Virus record (IMG/VR): IMGVR_UViG_3300025120_015120
Location: 1-20,311 of that record
DNA from: a virus
Reading direction: 5' to 3' (one strand)
Length of the DNA stretch: 20,311 nucleotides
Part shown: positions 3,973 through 13,960 of the stretch, piece by piece
Position numbering within the stretch: the stretch's first letter is position 1
Layout of the letters: each line of letters opens with the position of its first letter
Translations under genes and position numbers: made by a program
Notes under the pieces: model-generated
The model's database searches: none
What the model was told of the DNA's origin: nothing
What the model saw: the letters and a program-made list of their open reading frames with translations, nothing else

Positions 3973-3976
3973 AATT

Positions 3977-4732
3977 ATGGAAAAAAGTTTTGAAAAACAT
4001 TTTAATATGTTATTGTCTAAATTAAAATTAGGTGAAAACTTTGCATTTGCACGATTTTCTGATGGGGAAATGTACCTTTTAATGGATAGGAGTACTACAC
4101 TTGGGAATGGTTATTATGCAATAGATGGTAAAAAACATACGGGTTCATACCATCCTATAAACTACAAAAACATCAACCCTAACGAACATGGATTTTTTTA
4201 TGATGCGTTAAAAGATGCTTTTAAGCACCATGCTGAAAATTATTTTGTTGGCCTCAGTTGCAGATGTTGTGTTGGAGAAGATAATTTTAAATGGCAAGTA
4301 GATTTAAGAGGGGGGGATGATGATAATTTAACTTGGTCAAATCTTTTAATAAACGGTAATTTTAGTAGGTTTATTAACGAGATGGTACCCCTATTTAACA
4401 ATAAAAAAGTTGTTTTTATTGGTAATGAAAATCTTGATTTATTAAAACTTCCTTTTAAAGTAGAAAAAGATTTTAGAGTAGGAAATAACTGTGCTATTAA
4501 TGATTTTGATTTATCTGACAAAATAATCAAATGGGTAAAAGAAAATAATATTAAGAACCACTTATTTCTATTTTCAGCTGCTTCTTTAAGTGAAGTGTTA
4601 ATACATAAATTATTTGTTGAAGAAAAAGAAAACACATACATAGATGTAGGTACTGGGTTAAATTTGTATTTGGGAGTTGATACGTCCCGTGGATATTTAC
4701 GTGGTACAAATAATAAAATGTGCATTTGGTAA
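3977..4732 (+). CDS. GT-D-like (DUF1792-type) glycosyltransferase
   Basis: This is a putative sugar transferase and opens the glycan locus. The N-terminal part reads FAFARFSDGEMYLL. The SDGE contains a D-x-E motif like the metal-binding motif of the GT-D fold first described for DUF1792 proteins. The C-terminal half has KVVFIGNENLDLL and YIDVGTGLNLYLG, consistent with the second nucleotide-binding half and the family's typical end. The length of 251 residues fits. The start at 3977 was chosen because it lies 4 bases past the nuclease stop; an earlier in-frame ATG at 3908 would run back into that gene. The leader is A-rich (AATAAAATT) with no Shine-Dalgarno sequence. A run of seven G residues (4310-4316) lies inside the gene. 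The family call is by motif only. Confidence 0.6.
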   Translation: MEKSFEKHFNMLLSKLKLGENFAFARFSDGEMYLLMDRSTTLGNGYYAIDGKKHTGSYHPINYKNINPNEHGFFYDALKDAFKHHAENYFVGLSCRCCVGEDNFKWQVDLRGGDDDNLTWSNLLINGNFSRFINEMVPLFNNKKVVFIGNENLDLLKLPFKVEKDFRVGNNCAINDFDLSDKIIKWVKENNIKNHLFLFSAASLSEVLIHKLFVEEKENTYIDVGTGLNLYLGVDTSRGYLRGTNNKMCIW

Positions 4733-4741
4733 TATTAAGTT

Positions 4742-5503
4742 ATGAATATATATAGTAAAATAGATAGCAATAGATTTGGTTATAAAATTGGTAAAATAGA
4801 TGAATCATTTTTTAATGATAAAAGCATTGATGAAGCAATACAGTACTTTAAAGAAAATGATTATGAATGTATTTTTTCAAGAATTGACCATTCAAGACTT
4901 GATTTAATTAATGGGTTAGAACAACGTGGTTTTACTACAAAAGATATGCAATACACACTTCGTAATTCATTTAGGAATTATAAAGGTGAACTTCTTTTTA
5001 AACCTACAAAAAGAACAGATGGGTATGTATTTGGGGAAGCTCAAGAATCTGAAACAGACCAAATAATTAATATTGCTAAAAATTCATTTAGGGGGTATGG
5101 TCATTATTCTACAGATAATAGGCTAAACCCCCAAGATTGTTTAGATGCTTATGTAGATTGGACCTATAATTCATGTATCAATAAAAATGTTGCAGATAAG
5201 ATATTTGTAGCAAAAAAGAATAATGAAGTTGCGGGGTATATAGCATATAAAAAATTTACTAGAGAAAATTCACTATATGCTGCGGGAGTTTTAGGTGCAG
5301 TAGACCCAAAACACAGGGGCAACAGATTATTCCCAGACATTGATATAGCTGGATTAGAATGGGGCATTGAAGAAAATATGGCTTGGCAAGAACATAATGT
5401 ATTACTTGATAATTTTGCTGTATTTAAGGCTCACATGAGTGTAGGGTATAAACCACATGAATTTATGGTAACTCTACATGGTTGGATAGATGAAATAAAA
5501 TAA
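4742..5503 (+). CDS. GNAT-family N-acetyltransferase, WecD-like
   Basis: Likely transfers an acyl group from acyl-CoA to a sugar, most plausibly to the amine of a nucleotide-activated amino sugar, as WecD does for dTDP-4-amino-fucose. Of 253 residues, the first half is divergent. The second half carries the GNAT core: IFVAKKNNEVAGYIAYKK (beta-4), then LGAVDPKHRGNRLF, the acyl-CoA binding region with RGN in place of the usual R/Q-x-x-G-x-G/A. It ends with LDNFAVFKAHMSVGYKPHEF, matching the conserved terminal strand of the fold. The FRGYGHYSTDNRL segment resembles the corresponding part of WecD. It lies 4 bases before the FabH-like gene and near an aminotransferase gene, which suggests an amino-sugar acylation module. 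Confidence 0.72.
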   Translation: MNIYSKIDSNRFGYKIGKIDESFFNDKSIDEAIQYFKENDYECIFSRIDHSRLDLINGLEQRGFTTKDMQYTLRNSFRNYKGELLFKPTKRTDGYVFGEAQESETDQIINIAKNSFRGYGHYSTDNRLNPQDCLDAYVDWTYNSCINKNVADKIFVAKKNNEVAGYIAYKKFTRENSLYAAGVLGAVDPKHRGNRLFPDIDIAGLEWGIEENMAWQEHNVLLDNFAVFKAHMSVGYKPHEFMVTLHGWIDEIK

Positions 5504-5507
5504 AATT

Positions 5508-6452
5508 ATGAGGTATAATAATGTAGGAATAAAGGGTATTGGAGCTTTTTTACCTCCTTCTATAAAAACTGCGTCCGATATAGAACAAAATGCACCTACT
5601 TCTGGGGAATGGGTGTATAATAAATTAGGTATTCGAGAAAGAAGAACAGCTTTAAACCAAACCCCTTCAGATTTAGGAGTTAAGGCTGCACTAGAAGCTA
5701 TAAAAAATGCAGGGTTAACTAAAGAAGATATAGATATGATTATAGTAGCTACTTCTAGCGGTGAAAAAACATCTCCTTCTACAGCATGTATTATACATAA
5801 TAAACTTAATCTTAATAAAAATACTCCTTCTTTTGATGTAAATGCTGTATGTGCAGGTTTTGTGTATGCTTTATCAATTGCTTGTCCTTTAATTACTACT
5901 AAAACTTATAAAAATATTTTAGTAATAGGTACTGAAACTTATTCCAAAATTACAAATTGGGAACACCGAAACTGTGTATTTTTTGGGGATGGTGCTGGAG
6001 CTGTAGTAATAGGGGAATCTAACAAAGGGTGGATGTCTGTAGAATTAAATGCTAATGGGCAAGGAACTGGAATGACAGGTTTTTCTTTAGACCCTGGTGG
6101 GACATATGTAACTAACCCTAAAGAAGTATGGGATCAGGCTGTTACCGTCCTTCCTCTTTCAATAAAACAAATATTATCTAATAATAATCTTTCCCCTAGA
6201 GACATAGATCATTTTGTTCCTCACCAAGCTAGCATTAATATGTTAAAGTTAATAGCACAAGAAGTAGGTCTTGAAGAGGGAAAATTAAAAACAGTTATGG
6301 AAAAGTATGCTAATATTGCCGGAGCTTCAATTCCTATAGTTTTAGATGATATTAACAAACAAAATTTAATAAAACCCAAACATAAACTTCTTTTAACAGC
6401 TATTGGATCAGGTTGGGCTTGGGGTTCTGTTATAATAAATTATGAAAATTAA
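5508..6452 (+). CDS. 3-oxoacyl-ACP synthase III (FabH/KASIII-like)
   Basis: This is a thiolase-fold condensing enzyme. Classical FabH joins acetyl-CoA to malonyl-ACP to start fatty-acid synthesis; related enzymes transfer acyl groups to other acceptors. The catalytic triad is intact: C115 in VNAVCAGF, H239 in FVPHQAS, and N269 in YANIAGASIP (usually YGNTSAAS). The N-terminal GIRERR and the GDGAGAVVIG motif are typical. Its 314 residues are the normal family length. It follows the GNAT gene by 4 bases and overlaps the aminotransferase by 11, with no acyl carrier protein or other fatty-acid gene nearby. That context argues for making or transferring an acyl group for a sugar rather than for bulk lipid synthesis; this is inference. 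Confidence 0.9.
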   Translation: MRYNNVGIKGIGAFLPPSIKTASDIEQNAPTSGEWVYNKLGIRERRTALNQTPSDLGVKAALEAIKNAGLTKEDIDMIIVATSSGEKTSPSTACIIHNKLNLNKNTPSFDVNAVCAGFVYALSIACPLITTKTYKNILVIGTETYSKITNWEHRNCVFFGDGAGAVVIGESNKGWMSVELNANGQGTGMTGFSLDPGGTYVTNPKEVWDQAVTVLPLSIKQILSNNNLSPRDIDHFVPHQASINMLKLIAQEVGLEEGKLKTVMEKYANIAGASIPIVLDDINKQNLIKPKHKLLLTAIGSGWAWGSVIINYEN

Positions 6453-7080
6453 TATGAGAAATAATCCATACCAAATAGTAAAAATGTTTGAAGAGGAGAT
6501 TGCCCAATACACAGGTGCTCCTTATGTAGTTACAGTTGATAGTTGCACTAATGCTTTATTTTTAATGTGCAAATACCTTAATGTAAAAGAAGTAACTATA
6601 CCTTCACAAACATACTTATCAGTACCACAATCCATTATACATTCTGGTGGAGAAGTAATATTTGATAAAAGACCAAAATCAAATCATTGGAAAGGTGTTT
6701 ACCAATTAAAACCATATCCAATATATGATGCTGCTAAAAGATTTACTAAAGACATGTACATAGAAGGATCTTATATGGGTTTATCATTTCATATAAAAAA
6801 ACAACTCCCAATTTGGAAGGGAGGGGCTATTTTATGTGATAATAAAGAAGCATATGAATGGTTTAAAAGAGCCAGATATGAGGGTAGAAGTGAAAAATAT
6901 TATAAAGAAGACGATATTGAATTTTTAGGATGGAATATGTATATGACCCCACAACAAGCAGCCCATGGGCTAGCCTTATTCCAAAACTATCCAGACCATA
7001 AAGACGATATAACTGAATTGAACGGTTACAGAGATTTAACTGAATTTACAGTTTTTAAAAATAATAAAACTATAGATTAA
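6442..7080 (+). CDS. Minimal DegT/DnrJ/EryC1-type aminotransferase
   Basis: This is a PLP-dependent enzyme of the family that aminates keto-sugars bound to nucleotides. The conserved pieces appear in order: VVTVDSCTNALFL (residues 29-41), the PSQTYLSVPQS region (54-64), IYDAAK with the PLP-nitrogen aspartate D96, and LSFHIKK with K120 in the Schiff-base lysine position, followed by the glycine pair (KGGAI). At 212 residues it is far shorter than the usual 360-400: the large PLP domain is abbreviated and the C-terminal small domain is nearly missing. There is no sign of a frameshift, so it is a compact version rather than a broken gene, though activity is uncertain. The ATG at 6454 is an alternative start just after the FabH stop. 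Confidence 0.75.
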   Translation: MKINMRNNPYQIVKMFEEEIAQYTGAPYVVTVDSCTNALFLMCKYLNVKEVTIPSQTYLSVPQSIIHSGGEVIFDKRPKSNHWKGVYQLKPYPIYDAAKRFTKDMYIEGSYMGLSFHIKKQLPIWKGGAILCDNKEAYEWFKRARYEGRSEKYYKEDDIEFLGWNMYMTPQQAAHGLALFQNYPDHKDDITELNGYRDLTEFTVFKNNKTID

Positions 7081-7081
7081 A

Positions 7082-8095
7082 ATGAATAAAAGAAATATAA
7101 AAAAAACAGCCCTAATATTAGGTGGAGGTGGTTTTATAGGAGGCCATTTAGCAAAACGACTTAAAGATGAAGGATTTTGGGTCCGTGTTGTTGATATAAA
7201 AGAACAACATGAATTTTGGGATCATGATAAAATTTGCCATGAATATATTTGTGGGGATCTTAGAGATCCTAAAATTGTAAGCCGAATTATGTTTTCCCCT
7301 ACCCAAACTACAGAAAAAAATTGCCCTAATTCATTTGATGAAGTATATCAACTTGCTGCTGATATGGGGGGAGCAGGCTATATCTTCACAGGTAATAACG
7401 ATGCTAACGTAATGCACAATTCAGCATTAATTAATCTTAATGTTGTGTATGAGGCTGCTAAAAAAGGAATCAAACGAATATTTTATAGCTCCTCAGCTTG
7501 TATGTATCCTGAACACAACCAGTTAGACCCTAATAACCCAAATTGTGAAGAATCAAGTGCTTACCCAGCAAACCCCGATTCAGAATACGGTTGGGAAAAA
7601 TTATTTAGTGAGCGCTTATTTTTATCATTTAATCGTAATTATAACCTTGATGTTAGGGTAGCTCGTTTTCATAATATATTTGGACCTATGGGTACTTGGG
7701 CTGGTGGTAAAGAAAAAGCACCTGCTGCTATGTGCAGAAAAGCTGCTGAAGCTGTATCTGAAATTGAAGTATGGGGTGATGGTCAACAAACAAGATCGTT
7801 TCTTTATATTGATGAATGTGTAGAAGCGGTGCTCCGCTTTATGAGACAAGAAGAATTTTATGGTCCTGTTAATATTGGATCTGAAGAAATGGTTACTATT
7901 AATCAGTTAGCCCAAATTGCTATAGATCTTTCTGGAAAGGATTTATCAATCAAAAATATAGATGGCCCTTTAGGAGTTAGAGGAAGAAATTCCGATAATA
8001 AACTTTATAAAGAAAACATGGGATGGGAACCAACACAACCCCTTTATAAAGGAATGAAACAAACATTTAAATGGATAAACCAACAAGTAAAATGA
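7082..8095 (+). CDS. GDP-mannose 3,5-epimerase
   Basis: This short-chain-dehydrogenase-fold enzyme converts GDP-D-mannose to GDP-L-galactose (and GDP-L-gulose) using bound NAD. The match to the plant enzyme is strong along the whole length. It has the Rossmann GGGGFIGG (14-21), AADMGGAGYI, SSSACMYPE with the catalytic cysteine C140, YGWEK with Y169/K173, and RFHNIFGPMGTW. K212 in EKAPAA is the partner acid/base, followed by WGDGQQTRSF and the RGRNSDN substrate-binding motif near the end. The spacing of C, Y and K keeps a constant offset of 5 from the Arabidopsis numbering as I recall it. Its 337 residues form a full domain. It ends in an ATGA overlap with the dehydrogenase gene. GDP-L-galactose is a likely donor for the fucosyltransferase-like enzymes downstream. 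Confidence 0.93.
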   Translation: MNKRNIKKTALILGGGGFIGGHLAKRLKDEGFWVRVVDIKEQHEFWDHDKICHEYICGDLRDPKIVSRIMFSPTQTTEKNCPNSFDEVYQLAADMGGAGYIFTGNNDANVMHNSALINLNVVYEAAKKGIKRIFYSSSACMYPEHNQLDPNNPNCEESSAYPANPDSEYGWEKLFSERLFLSFNRNYNLDVRVARFHNIFGPMGTWAGGKEKAPAAMCRKAAEAVSEIEVWGDGQQTRSFLYIDECVEAVLRFMRQEEFYGPVNIGSEEMVTINQLAQIAIDLSGKDLSIKNIDGPLGVRGRNSDNKLYKENMGWEPTQPLYKGMKQTFKWINQQVK

Positions 8096-9171
8096 GTAAA
8101 AAAATATCAATAATAGGTGTAGGTAAACTAGGGCTTTGTTTAGGTCTTAATTTGGAAACAAAAGGATATAATGTATTAGGTATTGATGCGAGTAAACCTT
8201 ACATTGAGTTACTCAAAACTAAAACTCTTAAATCTAGTGAACCTTTTGTAGAAGAATTACTACAAAATAGTTCTAATATAGAGTTTACAACTAATTTAAC
8301 ACGTGCCGTAGAATCTGATACTATTTTTGTAGTAGTAGCTACTCCATCGACCCTAGAATGGAAATATGATCATACTCAAGTTGAACAAGTAGCAGATGAG
8401 TTGATAAAATTAGGTAAGCAACCTACTAGAAAAGATTTAGTTATTAATTGCACTACTTTCCCAGGATATTGTGATACTTTACATGAAAAACTCAAAGAAT
8501 ATAATTATTACGTTTCGTATAATCCTGAATTCATAGCCCAGGGCACTATTATTAAAGATCAATTAAATTGTGATAATGTTTTAATTGGAGAAGCTGATGA
8601 AATTGCAGGTAATAAGATTGAAACAATCTATAAAGACCTATGTGAATCCGATCCCTATTATAATAAAATGTCTTGTACCGAAGCAGAATTAGTGAAATTA
8701 GCTACTAATTGTTTTTTAACTACTAAAATTAGTTTTGCCAACATGGTAGGGGATATTGCTAGTAGATTAGAATGTGACGCTAATAAAGTATTACAAGCTA
8801 TAGGTACTGATTCTAGAGTAGGATCTAAATACATTAAACCTGGATTTGGGTTTGGGGGTCCATGTTTTCCTAGAGATAACAGGGCATTAGCTAAATGTGG
8901 TGAAGAATTAGGGATAGATGCTGCTATCTCTAAAGCTACAGATGAAATGAATAAAAAACACCTTCAATATCAAATTGAAGATTTTGTAAAAGCTAATCCT
9001 GATAGAACTAAAGAAATAGAAATAGAATATGTTACTTATAAAAAAGATAGTGTTTTGTTAGAAGAATCCCAACAACTGGAGTTTGCTCTTAAATTAAAAG
9101 AATTAGGTTACTCTATTAAAATTTTAGATCAAAGAAAAGAAGTATTAATTCAATTAAAAAATTTATTATGA
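8092..9171 (+). CDS. UDP-glucose/GDP-mannose dehydrogenase family, short form
   Basis: This is an NAD-dependent oxidase of the UGD/GMD family, which turns a UDP- or GDP-sugar into its uronic acid in two steps. The N-terminal Rossmann motif is GVGKLG. YNPEFIAQGTI and the KLATNCFLTTKISFAN segment hold the conserved Lys and Asn, and FGFGGPCFPRD carries the catalytic cysteine. Two oddities: the usual STVPVGT motif is CTTFPGYCD, and the C-terminal nucleotide-binding domain is reduced to roughly 70 residues (359 in total, against about 430 in most relatives). Substrate is uncertain: UDP-glucose by family majority. The start at 8092 forms an ATGA overlap with the epimerase gene; an in-frame ATG at 8071 would add seven residues. 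Confidence 0.85.
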   Translation: MSKKISIIGVGKLGLCLGLNLETKGYNVLGIDASKPYIELLKTKTLKSSEPFVEELLQNSSNIEFTTNLTRAVESDTIFVVVATPSTLEWKYDHTQVEQVADELIKLGKQPTRKDLVINCTTFPGYCDTLHEKLKEYNYYVSYNPEFIAQGTIIKDQLNCDNVLIGEADEIAGNKIETIYKDLCESDPYYNKMSCTEAELVKLATNCFLTTKISFANMVGDIASRLECDANKVLQAIGTDSRVGSKYIKPGFGFGGPCFPRDNRALAKCGEELGIDAAISKATDEMNKKHLQYQIEDFVKANPDRTKEIEIEYVTYKKDSVLLEESQQLEFALKLKELGYSIKILDQRKEVLIQLKNLL

Positions 9172-9911
9172 ATCTAGATCAAAAAATAAGCAATTGGTTA
9201 GAAAATTATCTTACCCACAATAAATTAGATACTTTTATTATTGGAGTAAGTGGTGGAATAGACTCTGCAGTAACTTCTACATTATGTGCTCTTACCAATA
9301 AACCTACTATAGTAGTAAGTATGCCAATCCACCAGGCACCTACTCAACTACAACGAGCTCATGACCATATTAAGTGGTTAAAAATGAATTTTCCTAATAT
9401 TTTATCTTTAGAGTATGATTTAACTACTACATTTGAAACTTTTAAATTATTATTCCCAACTGATGATTTATTAGCCCTAGCTAATTCTAGAGCTAGACTT
9501 AGAATGACTACTTTATATCAAGTAGCTGCTGAAAACAAAGGAATAGTAGTAGGTACAGGTAATAAAGTAGAAGACTTTGGAGTAGGGTTTTATACAAAGT
9601 ATGGAGATGGTGGAGTTGATATTTCCCCTATTGCAGACTTAACTAAAACAGAAGTCAGACAATTAGCTAAGGATTTAGGAATAAATAATGAAATTATTAT
9701 TGCACCCCCAACAGATGGGTTATGGGGTGATGATAGAACAGATGAAGATCAAATTGGTGCTTCTTATGAAGAGTTAGAATGGGCTATGGAATTTAGAGGC
9801 GACCCCACTACTTTAACGGGTAGAAATAAAGAAGTATATTATATTTACAATAATTTTAATACCAAAAACAAACATAAAATGCTTCCCATACCTATTTTTA
9901 AAAAATATTAA
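9168..9911 (+). CDS. nadE: NAD synthetase, ammonia-dependent type
   Basis: Makes NAD+ from nicotinic acid adenine dinucleotide, ATP and ammonia. The ATP pyrophosphatase loop SGGIDSAV lies near residues 29-36. NSRARLRM, GTGNKVEDFG and YGDGGVDISPIADLTKTEV follow. The C-terminal DDRTDEDQIGASYEEL matches the family's conserved TDE-x(2)-G-x-SYEEL end. There is no nitrilase-type glutaminase domain, so ammonia or a partner would supply nitrogen. Its 247 residues are close to stand-alone bacterial NadE (about 270). It starts in an ATGA overlap with the NAD-dependent dehydrogenase gene and ends in a TAATG overlap with a glycosyltransferase gene, so it is embedded in the glycan operon. It could feed NAD to its neighbours or counter host NAD depletion; both are inference. 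Confidence 0.92.
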   Translation: MNLDQKISNWLENYLTHNKLDTFIIGVSGGIDSAVTSTLCALTNKPTIVVSMPIHQAPTQLQRAHDHIKWLKMNFPNILSLEYDLTTTFETFKLLFPTDDLLALANSRARLRMTTLYQVAAENKGIVVGTGNKVEDFGVGFYTKYGDGGVDISPIADLTKTEVRQLAKDLGINNEIIIAPPTDGLWGDDRTDEDQIGASYEELEWAMEFRGDPTTLTGRNKEVYYIYNNFNTKNKHKMLPIPIFKKY

Positions 9912-10651
9912 TGGCTTATTATTCTTTATATAAGGGATCTCACAAAGCAGGCATTGGATCCTTACTCCAAATTCAACAACATTTATATGCTTATACTCGT
10001 ATAAATAATCTAGAATTTTACCATCCAGGATTTAGTGAGTTAGCTCATTGGGAGTATACTAATTACTCTCAACAGGAATATTGTGATACACTTAATAAGT
10101 TTTTTAATTTACCCACTGTAGATAATAATCAAGATTTAGAATTTGTAAGTGATAGATATTTAATTAAAGAGTGGGGGGAACAATTTAATAACCAAAAACA
10201 AGAATATATTAAAGAATTAGCTTCTTGTATTCAATATAAAGGAGATTTATATTTTAACCCCAATAAAACTTCAGTTGCGGTTCATATTAGAACGGTAAAT
10301 TCACAAGATAACTGTTTTGCTTCCTCTCGTGAATATTATAATAAAAATAAAATATCTTATTACACTGACTTATTAAATAAAATAACATCCACTCACGGAA
10401 AGAACCTAGATATCCATGTATTTTCCCAGGGGGATGAAAAAGATTTTCAATTTTTAGTAGATACCCATGATGCTACTTTACATATAAATGATAATATATT
10501 AACTACAATTTATCATTTAACATTTAGTAATATTTTAGTAACTGCTAATAGTTCTCTTAGTTGGAGTGCTCATTTATACGGGCAAAATAATGTTGTATAT
10601 GCTAGACCTACTTTTTCTCACTCATGGTATCCTAATACAAATTTAACATAA
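9911..10651 (+). CDS. Fucosyltransferase-like glycosyltransferase
   Basis: Likely transfers a GDP-bound sugar (L-fucose or L-galactose type). It has the HIR signature of alpha-1,2/alpha-1,6 fucosyltransferases (VAVHIRTVN, H125-R127). An N-terminal glycine-containing motif, KAGIGSLLQIQQHLYAY, is analogous to the GRLGNQLFQ motif of GT11. At the C-terminus, ILVTANSSLSWSAHLYG resembles the conserved sugar-nucleotide binding end. Its 246 residues are slightly shorter than GT11 enzymes. The gene begins in a TAATG overlap with nadE. The precise GT family is uncertain; the fold class (GT-B, fucosyltransferase-like) is a motif-based judgement. Confidence 0.65.
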   Translation: MAYYSLYKGSHKAGIGSLLQIQQHLYAYTRINNLEFYHPGFSELAHWEYTNYSQQEYCDTLNKFFNLPTVDNNQDLEFVSDRYLIKEWGEQFNNQKQEYIKELASCIQYKGDLYFNPNKTSVAVHIRTVNSQDNCFASSREYYNKNKISYYTDLLNKITSTHGKNLDIHVFSQGDEKDFQFLVDTHDATLHINDNILTTIYHLTFSNILVTANSSLSWSAHLYGQNNVVYARPTFSHSWYPNTNLT

Positions 10652-10655
10652 TAAT

Positions 10656-11372
10656 ATGAACATTAAAAAATATATTCCTTCTCAATTATTGGTAAATGAA
10701 AAAATTGAACTCCCAGATAATTTTACTAAAGTAAAAATAGATATTGGACTATCTCATAATGCCCCTAATTCTGAAGTCTGGTTAAATGCAAACCCAAATG
10801 ATTTAGTTGTATTTGGATTTGAGCCCAATCCTAAAGCACTTAGCATACTAAAAGGAGAATTAGAACGGGAAGGAAATTTTGCTAATGTTTTATCTTTAGA
10901 CAAATTAAATAGTAATTTTTTCCTAATACCTTTGGCGTTAGGGAATGAAGATAAATTAAGTAATTTTTATGGTGTTACAAATATAGATTGTGGAGTTTCA
11001 AGTTTATATAAACCTAATCAATGGGATTATACTCAATCCCAAGTCCCTCAGTTTAAATTAGATACCTTTCTAGAATTATTTCCTTTTAATCAAATCCCTT
11101 ATATTTCCCATATTAAAATAGATGCCCAAGGTCATGATTGGAATATAATTAAAGGAATGGTTAACCATCTAGATAAAATAGCTTATATTTCTTATGAATC
11201 TACTACTCGTGGTCAATATCAAGGAGTGACAGAAGAAGTAGGTCACATACATAATTTGTTAATAGAAAATAAATTTAGACAGGAAGGTAAAATGGGTTGT
11301 GATTTAATTTATTTTAATGAAAATTTTAATAATATTAAAGATCAAATAGATTTTAGATTAGAAGGACTATGA
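10656..11372 (+). CDS. FkbM-family methyltransferase
   Basis: This is an S-adenosylmethionine-dependent O-methyltransferase, typically acting on sugar hydroxyls in surface-glycan clusters. Motif I appears as KVKIDIGLSHNAP (D29-I-G), and the acidic end of strand 2 is FGFEPN (E56). The FkbM signature LDTFLELF…HIKIDAQGHDWNIIKGM lies in the C-terminal third, with IDAQGHD replacing the more common IDVEGHE. The length of 238 residues is standard. Its 3' end overlaps the next gene as ATGA. It sits between two fucosyltransferase-like genes, which suggests it caps or decorates the deoxyhexose or L-galactose residue they add; that is inference from order. Confidence 0.87.
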   Translation: MNIKKYIPSQLLVNEKIELPDNFTKVKIDIGLSHNAPNSEVWLNANPNDLVVFGFEPNPKALSILKGELEREGNFANVLSLDKLNSNFFLIPLALGNEDKLSNFYGVTNIDCGVSSLYKPNQWDYTQSQVPQFKLDTFLELFPFNQIPYISHIKIDAQGHDWNIIKGMVNHLDKIAYISYESTTRGQYQGVTEEVGHIHNLLIENKFRQEGKMGCDLIYFNENFNNIKDQIDFRLEGL

Positions 11373-12220
11373 TTACCTTTAATGAATTAGGGAAATATGG
11401 GAGGCTTGGAAATCAATTATTCCAATACGCTGCTTTAAGAGCTTTAAGTTTAAAAAAAGAATACGAGATATCTTTACCTCTTTTAGAAGATAAAGTTTGG
11501 CATGGGCAGAAATGTTTATTGGGTAATTTTACCATTATTACTAATTACTCTTCATTTTCTCCTTCTTATACTTATTCTGAATCTTCACTTACTAAATTTG
11601 ACCCTAATTTTTTTGATCTTCCTGATGGAGTAAACCTTCACGGGTTTTTTCAAAATTTAGAATATTTTGATAAGTACAAAGAAATTATCTGCAAAGAACT
11701 TACTTTAAAGTCTTCTTATCTAAATCAAGCCCAAACCCTACTTTCTAATTATCAATCTTCTTACCCAGACTATAAATTAGTTACTTTACACATTCGAAGA
11801 GGAGATAATATTACAGTAAATGGGGGTTTTATTTCTTTATTTGGTTCTGATAGTACTAAGTTAGATCCTAATTCTCCTTGGGCTATTTATTTTAACAATG
11901 CTAAAAAGATTTTTGGAGAAAAAACCAAATATTTAGTCTTTACTGGGGGTAATAGGGATAATAATGATCAAGCGGATTTAGATTGGGTTACAAATAATCT
12001 AGGTTCTGAATGTATTTTAGCATCTACTTTGGACCCATTATTAGATTATGCTTTAATTTATCTTTGTTCTAATAATATTTTAAGTTATGCTAGTAGTTTT
12101 GGATGGTGGGCTTCTTATTCTAATTTAGATCCTAATAAAAAAATAGTAATGCCAAAAAATTATTTTGTAGATGGTCAAGATACTACTAGATTAACCCCTA
12201 AAAATTGGATAACAATATGA
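11369..12220 (+). CDS. Glycosyltransferase family 11 (alpha-1,2-fucosyltransferase-like)
   Basis: Transfers L-fucose (or a close GDP-sugar) in alpha-1,2 linkage to a glycan acceptor. Two diagnostic motifs are clear: GRLGNQLFQYA (residues 11-21) at the N-terminus and HIRRGD (141-146) in the middle. The C-terminal motif LSYASSFGWWASYSN is also typical. Its 283 residues are a full-length bacterial GT11. Starts and ends are ATGA overlaps with the methyltransferase and the epimerase genes. No GDP-fucose pathway gene (Gmd or Fcl) is visible in this window. The donor is therefore either host GDP-fucose or GDP-L-galactose from the epimerase encoded at 7082. Confidence 0.92.
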   Translation: MITFNELGKYGRLGNQLFQYAALRALSLKKEYEISLPLLEDKVWHGQKCLLGNFTIITNYSSFSPSYTYSESSLTKFDPNFFDLPDGVNLHGFFQNLEYFDKYKEIICKELTLKSSYLNQAQTLLSNYQSSYPDYKLVTLHIRRGDNITVNGGFISLFGSDSTKLDPNSPWAIYFNNAKKIFGEKTKYLVFTGGNRDNNDQADLDWVTNNLGSECILASTLDPLLDYALIYLCSNNILSYASSFGWWASYSNLDPNKKIVMPKNYFVDGQDTTRLTPKNWITI

Positions 12221-13191
12221 TATTACTCTGTTTTGGAACCCGCCCCGAGTGGCTTAAAATTAAACCCTTAATAAAGGTATTAGACAACTACCAACTTTTA
12301 TTTACTGGACAACACCCAGATTTGCTTAAAGATTTAAAGGTGGATCATAAAATAACTATTAAAGATAATCCTAATAGACTAGATCAATTAATTAGTGATT
12401 GCCTCCTACAATTCCCAAAAGATGATTTTGATTCAGTGTTGGTACAGGGAGATACAGCTTCTGCTTTTGCTTGTGCTATAGCTGCCTTTAATAGAAAAAA
12501 GAAAATTTATTATTTAGAAGCAGGTCTTAGAAGTTACAATTTAGATCATCCCTACCCTGAAGAAGGATACAGACAAATGGTAGCTAGATTAGCAGACGTT
12601 AACCTTTGCCCCACAGAATTATCTAAACAAAATTTAATAGACGAAAAAGTACAAGGAGAATGTCACGTAGTGGGGAACACAGTATTAGATAACTTACTGC
12701 CTTATAAAGATAAATGTGAATATACTAATAAAGTGTTAGTTACATTGCATAGAAGAGAAAATCATCATCAAATGAATCAATGGTTTACTGAAGTAAATAA
12801 TTTAGCTAAAAATAACCCGGATTTAGAATTTATTTTACCTATTCACCCAAACCCAAATGTTCAAAAACACAAACATTTACTTACTAATATAAATGTAGTA
12901 GAACCCTTATCCCATCCTGAATTACTAGATATTTTAGTAAAATGTAAATTAGTAATTAGTGATAGTGGGGGGTTACAAGAAGAAGGCAGTTTCTTTAATA
13001 AGAAAGTTATAGTATGTAGAGAAACTACAGAACGTCCTGAAGCTATAGAAACAGGGCATCTATATTTATGTCCTTCCCCTTTGGGGTTAGAAAGCAAATT
13101 TGAAGATTTAATAAATGGTTATTATATTGACTCAACTTGCCCTTATGGAGATGGTCAATCTAGTCTAAAAATAAAAACAATAATAAAATAA
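12217..13191 (+). CDS. wecB: UDP-N-acetylglucosamine 2-epimerase, non-hydrolysing
   Basis: Interconverts UDP-GlcNAc and UDP-ManNAc or a related amino-sugar nucleotide. It begins ILLCFGTRPEWLKIKPL, where the family usually has GTRPEAIKMAP. Conserved catalytic and binding segments follow: VQGDTAS, YLEAGLRS, PEEGYRQM, LHRRENHH, LPIHPNPNV, SDSGGLQEEGSF and ETTERPEAIETG. The acidic residues and the histidine equivalent to E. coli WecB D95, E117, E131 and H213 are all kept. At 324 residues it is about 50 shorter than E. coli WecB. The start at 12217 gives an ATGA overlap with the GT11 gene; an ATG at 12205 is also in frame. It adds amino-sugar supply to the pathway, possibly ManNAc or its uronic acid together with the dehydrogenase. 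Confidence 0.93.
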   Translation: MILLCFGTRPEWLKIKPLIKVLDNYQLLFTGQHPDLLKDLKVDHKITIKDNPNRLDQLISDCLLQFPKDDFDSVLVQGDTASAFACAIAAFNRKKKIYYLEAGLRSYNLDHPYPEEGYRQMVARLADVNLCPTELSKQNLIDEKVQGECHVVGNTVLDNLLPYKDKCEYTNKVLVTLHRRENHHQMNQWFTEVNNLAKNNPDLEFILPIHPNPNVQKHKHLLTNINVVEPLSHPELLDILVKCKLVISDSGGLQEEGSFFNKKVIVCRETTERPEAIETGHLYLCPSPLGLESKFEDLINGYYIDSTCPYGDGQSSLKIKTIIK

Positions 13192-13192
13192 A

Positions 13193-13921
13193 ATGATTAC
13201 AGTTATATTAAATTGTTATAAACGCCCTCAATATCTTCAAGAACAAATTAAATCAATACTCAACCAATCTACCCCACCAGAAGATATTTGGATTTGGTAC
13301 AATAAACCTGAAGACCAAGAACAATATGATTTATCTAATTTAGGGTGTAAAGTAGTAACTTGTAATCATAACTATAAGTTCCACGGTAGATTTGCGTATG
13401 GTTTGTTAGCACAAACTGAATATGTTGCTTTTTTTGATGATGACACTATTCCGGGTAATAAATGGTTTGAAAATTGTATAAACACTATAGAACAGGGTCA
13501 AGATGGTATATTAGGTACTACTGGGGTTTATTTATTAGGGGATAATTATTCTAATAATACTAAGTTTGGATGGAATGGAGAACAAAACCCATCCACAGTA
13601 GAAGTAGATTTAGTGGGCCATGCTTGGTTTATGAAAAAGAATTATCTTAGATATCTTTGGTACGAAGATCCTATTAGTTGGGATAATGGAGAAGACATGC
13701 AACTAAGTTACCAAGCTCAAAAGTACGGAAATATAAAAACATACGTACCCCCTCATCCTTCAGAAGATACTTCAATATGGGGTAGCCTTCCTAAAACTGG
13801 GATAAAGTATGGATCAGATAAAGCTGCTTCTTGGATTCATAATTCTGACCATGGTAATTTGAGAGATAAAATTGTGCAGGAACAAATAAAAAGAGGGTGG
13901 AAACTTTGTAGAAATAATTAA
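13193..13921 (+). CDS. Glycosyltransferase family 2
   Basis: This inverting GT-A enzyme adds a sugar from a nucleotide donor. The N-terminus ITVILNCYKRPQYLQEQI is the typical first strand and helix. The metal-binding DXD motif is AFFDDDTIPG (DDD at 82-84), and the late WDNGEDMQLSYQAQKYG contains the ED acid/base motif. No membrane segment is evident, so it is a soluble cytoplasmic enzyme. Its 242 residues are a bare catalytic domain. It starts one base after the epimerase stop, with an A-rich leader, and is the last gene before the 39-base intergenic gap. Donor and acceptor are unknown. Confidence 0.88.
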   Translation: MITVILNCYKRPQYLQEQIKSILNQSTPPEDIWIWYNKPEDQEQYDLSNLGCKVVTCNHNYKFHGRFAYGLLAQTEYVAFFDDDTIPGNKWFENCINTIEQGQDGILGTTGVYLLGDNYSNNTKFGWNGEQNPSTVEVDLVGHAWFMKKNYLRYLWYEDPISWDNGEDMQLSYQAQKYGNIKTYVPPHPSEDTSIWGSLPKTGIKYGSDKAASWIHNSDHGNLRDKIVQEQIKRGWKLCRNN

Positions 13922-13924
13922 ATT

Positions 13925-13957
13925 TTATATTTTCAATATATGTATATCAAAATATAA
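13925..13957 (+). promoter_or_regulatory. Inverted repeat upstream of the ribbon-helix-helix gene
   Basis: TTATATTTT (13925-13933) and its exact reverse complement AAAATATAA (13949-13957) flank a 15-base centre. They lie in one of the only two real intergenic gaps and end 3 bases before the start of a DNA-binding-protein gene. A loose Bacteroidota-like promoter could be read here: TTTG at 13905-13908, and TATATTTT from 13926 against the consensus TAnnTTTG, with a 17-base gap. The match is imperfect. The repeat could be an operator for the downstream repressor-like protein. AT-only repeats arise easily in this base composition. Confidence 0.3.
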
Positions 13958-13960
13958 GCT

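Follow-up and report, generated by a model that had tools for sequence, protein, structure and literature searches.

A candidate phage gene module for acylated amino sugars that includes a FabH-like ketoacyl synthase

What would a phage do with a FabH-like ketoacyl synthase encoded between an acyltransferase and a sugar aminotransferase-like protein? We addressed this question for three genes in a fragment of a phage genome, IMG/VR virus record IMGVR_UViG_3300025120_015120. The stretch of DNA analyzed, called the window here, is this record in full (20,311 bases). The original prediction was that the three genes form a compact module for acylated amino sugars. Our analysis supports that prediction: the linkage of FabH exceeded a random-gene control, and there is a bacterial precedent tested with mutants (PMC3927599). 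Taking all four steps of the pathway described below together, we think it fairly probable that the trio makes a nucleotide-linked amino sugar carrying an unusual short acyl group.

The trio and the surrounding glycan island

We found that the three genes are adjacent and nearly touching, as predicted. All are intact and on the + strand (Table 1), with a 4-bp gap between the GNAT and FabH genes and an 11-bp overlap between the FabH and mini-DegT genes. The products are 212 to 314 amino acids long; the longest stop-free run in 200 shuffles of the window was 145 codons. An AAATT-like sequence precedes the starts at 3977, 5508, and 6442, with no evident Shine-Dalgarno motif. Starts of this type are common in Bacteroidota.

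Table 1. Features of the window in and around the gene trio
Feature	Position	Strand	Basis or remarks
Variable glycan island holding the trio	3973..13960	.	Comparison with relative L203
Probable GT-D-fold glycosyltransferase	3977..4732 (ORF also opens at TTG 3908)	+	PF22882 GT-D-like, weak
GNAT-type acyltransferase, proposed amino-sugar N-acyltransferase	4742..5503	+	253 aa, intact ORF
FabH-like ketoacyl synthase (KAS III), Cys115, His239, Asn269	5508..6452	+	314 aa, intact ORF
Mini-DegT, half-length DegT/DnrJ/EryC1/StrS-type aminotransferase, Asp96 and Lys120	6442..7080	+	212 aa, intact ORF
GDP-mannose 3,5-epimerase-like enzyme, next island gene, outside the trio	7082..8095	+	E 1e-94, Arabidopsis structures

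The carrier is probably a T4-like phage with a flavobacterial host. In the left part of the window, only the end of the GroEL gene is present, together with clamp-loader genes of the T4 type and a gene for a PD-(D/E)XK nuclease, and the remainder is mostly glycan genes. The clamp loader is similar to those of T4-like phages. Several window genes match a colinear stretch in Flavobacterium phage immuto (42-58% identity), and the top matches to the window GroEL are from immuto phages (60%). Based on these matches, a host in the Flavobacteriia is likely. A clear match to the T4-type capsid protein gp23 (E 4e-39 or better) was found in 11 of 32 FabH-bearing records tested, and weak matches were found in 3 more.

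The trio lies in a variable part of the genome. Compared with the relative L203 (7388-10697), the flanks of the window island match (67-90% on the left, 51-86% on the right), and the block between the flanks differs except for a mini-DegT (49%). With its flanks conserved and the block between them replaced, the island is a site at which glycan genes are swapped between phages, and the trio occupies this site.

The gene upstream of the trio probably encodes a glycosyltransferase of the GT-D fold. Nine of 13 members of its family matched PF22882 weakly (best E 1.7e-4; 0.019 for the window member), and no curated family scored above cut-off. This type of gene occurred no farther than 5 kb from mini-DegT in 30 of 80 loci and is the usual 5' neighbor of the pair formed by an acyltransferase and mini-DegT. 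Cyanophage proteins 57-59% identical to the epimerase-like product encoded downstream of the trio are labelled only UDP-glucose 4-epimerase or NAD-dependent dehydratase. The island also contains a NAD synthase-like gene (nadE, PHROG 11189) at 9168-9911.

Assignment of the three proteins

The middle gene was predicted to encode a ketoacyl-ACP synthase III with an intact Cys-His-Asn triad, and we confirmed both the domains and the triad. The protein matched Pfam ACP_syn_III and ACP_syn_III_C (both about 6e-26), and the triad was conserved in 58 of 58 viral FabH sequences. Since it passed PRK09352 (297.9 bits, cut-off 249) and missed the curated cut-off of TIGR00747 (fabH; 284.3 bits, cut-off 292.1), we class it on these profile scores as a member of the KAS III family and do not file it as a housekeeping FabH.

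The third protein was described as sugar aminotransferase-like. This description fits its family and its pyridoxal phosphate (PLP) site, and does not extend to a full-length enzyme with a small domain. The protein matched PF01041 (6e-20), and D96 and K120 of the PLP site were invariant in 24 aligned mini-DegT rows. However, it has 212 amino acids compared to the usual 360-400 or so of DegT enzymes, and the C-terminal small domain is absent. The best PDB matches to its AlphaFold model (pLDDT 88) were DegT enzymes, e.g., GDP-perosamine synthase, with a target-normalised TM of about 0.4 to DegT structures. As judged from sequence and model, mini-DegT is a shortened branch of the DegT/DnrJ/EryC1/StrS family that has retained the PLP residues and the large-domain fold. 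With the small domain absent, it may be inactive or act differently. The half-length family is common in viral contigs (at least 585 related stretches) and raises the question of whether the small domain is dispensable for a sugar aminotransferase.

The assignment of the GNAT is the weakest of the three. The prediction of an acyl-CoA-type transferase is consistent with the modelled fold, in that the top Foldseek matches in the PDB were all GNATs (from a low-confidence model). By sequence the assignment is weak: the window protein scored 19.6 bits against PF00583, just under the cut-off of 20.7. A homologue in the locus L033, 63% identical, scored above it (23.5 bits). A viral search with the window GNAT as a single protein gave no matches, and a search with a two-row alignment returned the L033 record again and nothing else. 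Homology of the window protein to WecD, the dTDP-fucosamine acyltransferase, was not supported (hhalign probability 0.3), and the L033 homologue was far below the cut-off of PRK10975 (E 0.012).

Linkage and ancestry of FabH in viral loci

We found that FabH is linked to acyltransferase genes in other viruses. A FabH profile search identified 57 other viral loci or contigs, and dereplication at 90% FabH identity gave 39 loci. Matches in records titled as phages of Listeria, Staphylococcus, and others (24-42% identical, mostly unannotated) were excluded as possible bacterial contamination. An acyltransferase gene was no more than two genes from FabH in 32 of the 39 loci, which were selected by FabH and guarded against shared ancestry only by dereplication and the random-gene control. 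In that control (5000 draws of genes from the same regions), the mean was 12.7 and the maximum was 23. Of the 7 loci in which an acyltransferase gene and a DegT gene (mini or full-length) were not both within 8 kb of FabH, 5 were short contigs or had FabH near a contig end.

Further genes were frequent near FabH, encoding a WbuC-type cupin, a FabG-like short-chain dehydrogenase/reductase (SDR), a PhyH dioxygenase, and GDP-mannose 4,6-dehydratase. In L002-L051, a WbuC-type cupin (about 137 aa) and a PhyH-type dioxygenase (about 300 aa) recur upstream or downstream of FabH. The nearest family of the hexapeptide partner found in FabH loci was NeuD/PglB/VioB.

No acyl carrier protein (ACP; PF00550) was found in the window, as predicted, or in 50 related records, and the controls were positive; a search of annotations for an ACP was likewise negative. 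The companion statement, that no fatty-acid gene is nearby, was correct for the window fragment, which has no FabG-like SDR, no 4,6-dehydratase, and no other fatty-acid elongation gene. It did not apply to many relatives, in which a FabG-like SDR follows FabH. Such an SDR was near FabH in 25 of the 39 loci, and in a sample it was closest to 3-oxoacyl-ACP reductase.

We found that FabH is not an obligate partner of mini-DegT. Among loci selected for mini-DegT alone, a GNAT, hexapeptide, or formyl transferase was adjacent in 35 of 65 after dereplication (random mean 6.8), and examples were checked with Pfam. FabH was within 5 kb of mini-DegT in none of 80 loci selected for close mini-DegT relatives. 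Because of these two results, we regard the aminotransferase and an exchangeable acyl or formyl transferase as the core, and FabH as an optional addition that would broaden the range of acyl groups available. Formyltransferase-domain proteins occupy the slot 5' of mini-DegT in L146 (7385-8011) and L147 (7337-8005). The presence of formyltransferases in this position suggests N-formyl amino sugars in other phages.

FabH is found repeatedly beside an acyltransferase and a DegT gene, but the exact order GNAT-FabH-DegT was seen in the window only. In L033, the GNAT homologue is directly 5' of mini-DegT and FabH is one gene beyond. Our results might also indicate that the GNAT works with mini-DegT as a simple pair for N-acetyl amino sugars, using acetyl-CoA, and that FabH acts elsewhere, e.g., on another sugar or a lipid carrier. 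The arrangement in L033, with no FabH between the two genes, fits such a pair, as does the widespread occurrence of GNAT and mini-DegT without any FabH. We consider this explanation unlikely given the closeness of acyltransferases to FabH in most FabH-bearing loci and the position of the window FabH, exactly between the two other genes and with an overlap.

The ancestry of FabH bears on a second alternative. The phage FabHs formed one clade of 43 sequences, including the window FabH, with moderate support (91). This clade adjoins Bacteroidota FabHs that mostly have FabI as a gene neighbor, so an ancestry in fatty-acid synthesis is likely. One Bacteroidota FabH near the phage clade is in a polysaccharide cluster, where DegT-like, GNAT, FabH, SDR, flippase, and glycosyltransferase genes stand in a row. 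A grouping that places the window FabH among the housekeeping FabHs of proteobacteria was rejected (p-AU 7e-5), in a test that covered the proteobacterial enzymes and is compatible with a Bacteroidota fatty-acid ancestor. The proposed objection to the module, that FabH might fall among host fatty-acid enzymes and be unlinked to the other two genes, was not borne out by this rejection and the recurring linkage. The FabI genes beside most of the nearest bacterial relatives and the match to the general KAS III model could still point to a role in starting fatty-acid synthesis for the infected host in the usual way, with a location in the glycan island that is incidental. We find this highly improbable in view of the strong linkage with sugar acyltransferases across phages, the placement of the window FabH outside the proteobacterial housekeeping enzymes, and a window without other fatty-acid elongation genes.

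The viral FabHs also differ from E. coli FabH at several positions. Basic residues found in housekeeping enzymes at positions 214, 249, and 257 were mostly lost, and F87 was Ser in 52 of 58 sequences. We rejected the loss of these basic, ACP-docking residues as proof of ACP independence because FabI-linked Bacteroidota FabHs also lack them. Some KAS III relatives act as acyltransferases, and the changed positions might indicate that the KAS III fold itself moves a ready-made acyl group to the sugar without forming a C-C bond; we give this very little credence, as a separate acyltransferase is usually encoded and the FabG-like reductase after FabH in many loci fits a 3-oxoacyl product.

The proposed pathway and its bacterial counterparts

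In the pathway that we favor, the trio acts together with host enzymes or other phage enzymes in four steps. We infer the substrates, step order, product, and malonyl donor, alongside the observed gene content, linkage, residues, and fold. Mini-DegT, based on its family, PLP residues, and fold, would aminate a keto 6-deoxy nucleotide sugar. This sugar would probably come from a GDP-mannose 4,6-dehydratase of the host or of another part of this phage; the gene for this enzyme adjoins mini-DegT in many relatives. FabH, based on its family and intact triad, would condense an acyl-CoA starter and a malonyl unit into a 3-oxoacyl thioester, e.g., acetoacetyl, and the FabG-like SDR of many relatives could reduce the 3-oxoacyl to a 3-hydroxyacyl group. 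Because no phage ACP was found, the malonyl unit would be supplied either by the malonyl-ACP of the host or by malonyl-CoA itself. NphT7 condenses malonyl-CoA with acetyl-CoA (PMC5432608). The GNAT would then transfer the acyl group to the new amino group as an amide, and glycosyltransferases of the island would put the sugar on a virion or infected-cell glycan. More tentatively, T4-like phages might possess an ACP-free N-acyl amino-sugar pathway, in which a CoA-using KAS III supplies a GNAT or hexapeptide transferase that works with a half-length DegT, and in which the acyl enzyme can be swapped.

A similar pathway is known in P. syringae. The aminotransferase VioA, the acyltransferase VioB, the KAS III VioS, and the reductase VioR, with an ACP, are assigned to a 3-hydroxybutyryl amino sugar of flagellin; vioA, vioB, and vioR mutants lose this sugar, and the role of VioS there is assigned by homology (PMC3927599). 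The phage loci resemble the viosamine island of P. syringae pv. tabaci 6605 and the glycosylation island of P. aeruginosa PAK in their DegT (VioA), hexapeptide-type acyltransferase (VioB), and KAS III (VioS) genes, and many phages have a FabG-like reductase as a counterpart of VioR (PMC3927599). Aminotransferase, acyltransferase, and KAS III genes occur together in the window and, within 8 kb, in 32 of the 39 loci. In contrast to the viosamine island, the phage loci are carried by phages, have no ACP that we could find, and encode a half-length aminotransferase. The window has a GNAT in place of VioB and no reductase, and the sugar base in the phage relatives is probably derived from GDP-mannose rather than from dTDP-glucose. 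The phage module may well work like a viosamine-type pathway, but we do not file it as a member because a dedicated ACP was not found.

Other systems share parts of this arrangement. Flagellin glycosylation islands of Enterobacteriaceae likewise combine aminotransferases, exchangeable acetyl or formyl transferases, and fatty-acid-type enzymes; unlike the phage trio, they are chromosomal, serve flagellin, and carry an ACP, and the parts of the published account used here name no KAS III (PMC4875605). In E. coli wecD-wecE (enterobacterial common antigen), a GNAT gene adjoins a DegT aminotransferase gene, as in the trio, but there is no FabH and the aminotransferase is full-length. The sugar and lipopolysaccharide-type clusters of jumbo phages and cyanophages contain epimerases, cupins, and glycosyltransferases and vary between related phages, like the window, whereas KAS III and mini-DegT are unmentioned there; these clusters have been proposed to change host surface glycans, acting against rival phages (PMC7824862).

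In the open-access literature, a scope outside which most subscription papers fall, our searches turned up no description of phages in which FabH accompanies amino-sugar genes. The acylated amino-sugar pathway is known from bacterial flagella and, as far as we found, is undescribed in phages. In a published inventory of viral metabolic genes from the ocean, contigs carrying lipopolysaccharide-type islands were taken out (PMC11360552), and this filter may partly explain why such modules go unreported. Our results suggest that phages make acylated amino sugars of their own and vary them through an acyl step that can be exchanged. These sugars could decorate virions or alter the surface of the infected cell.
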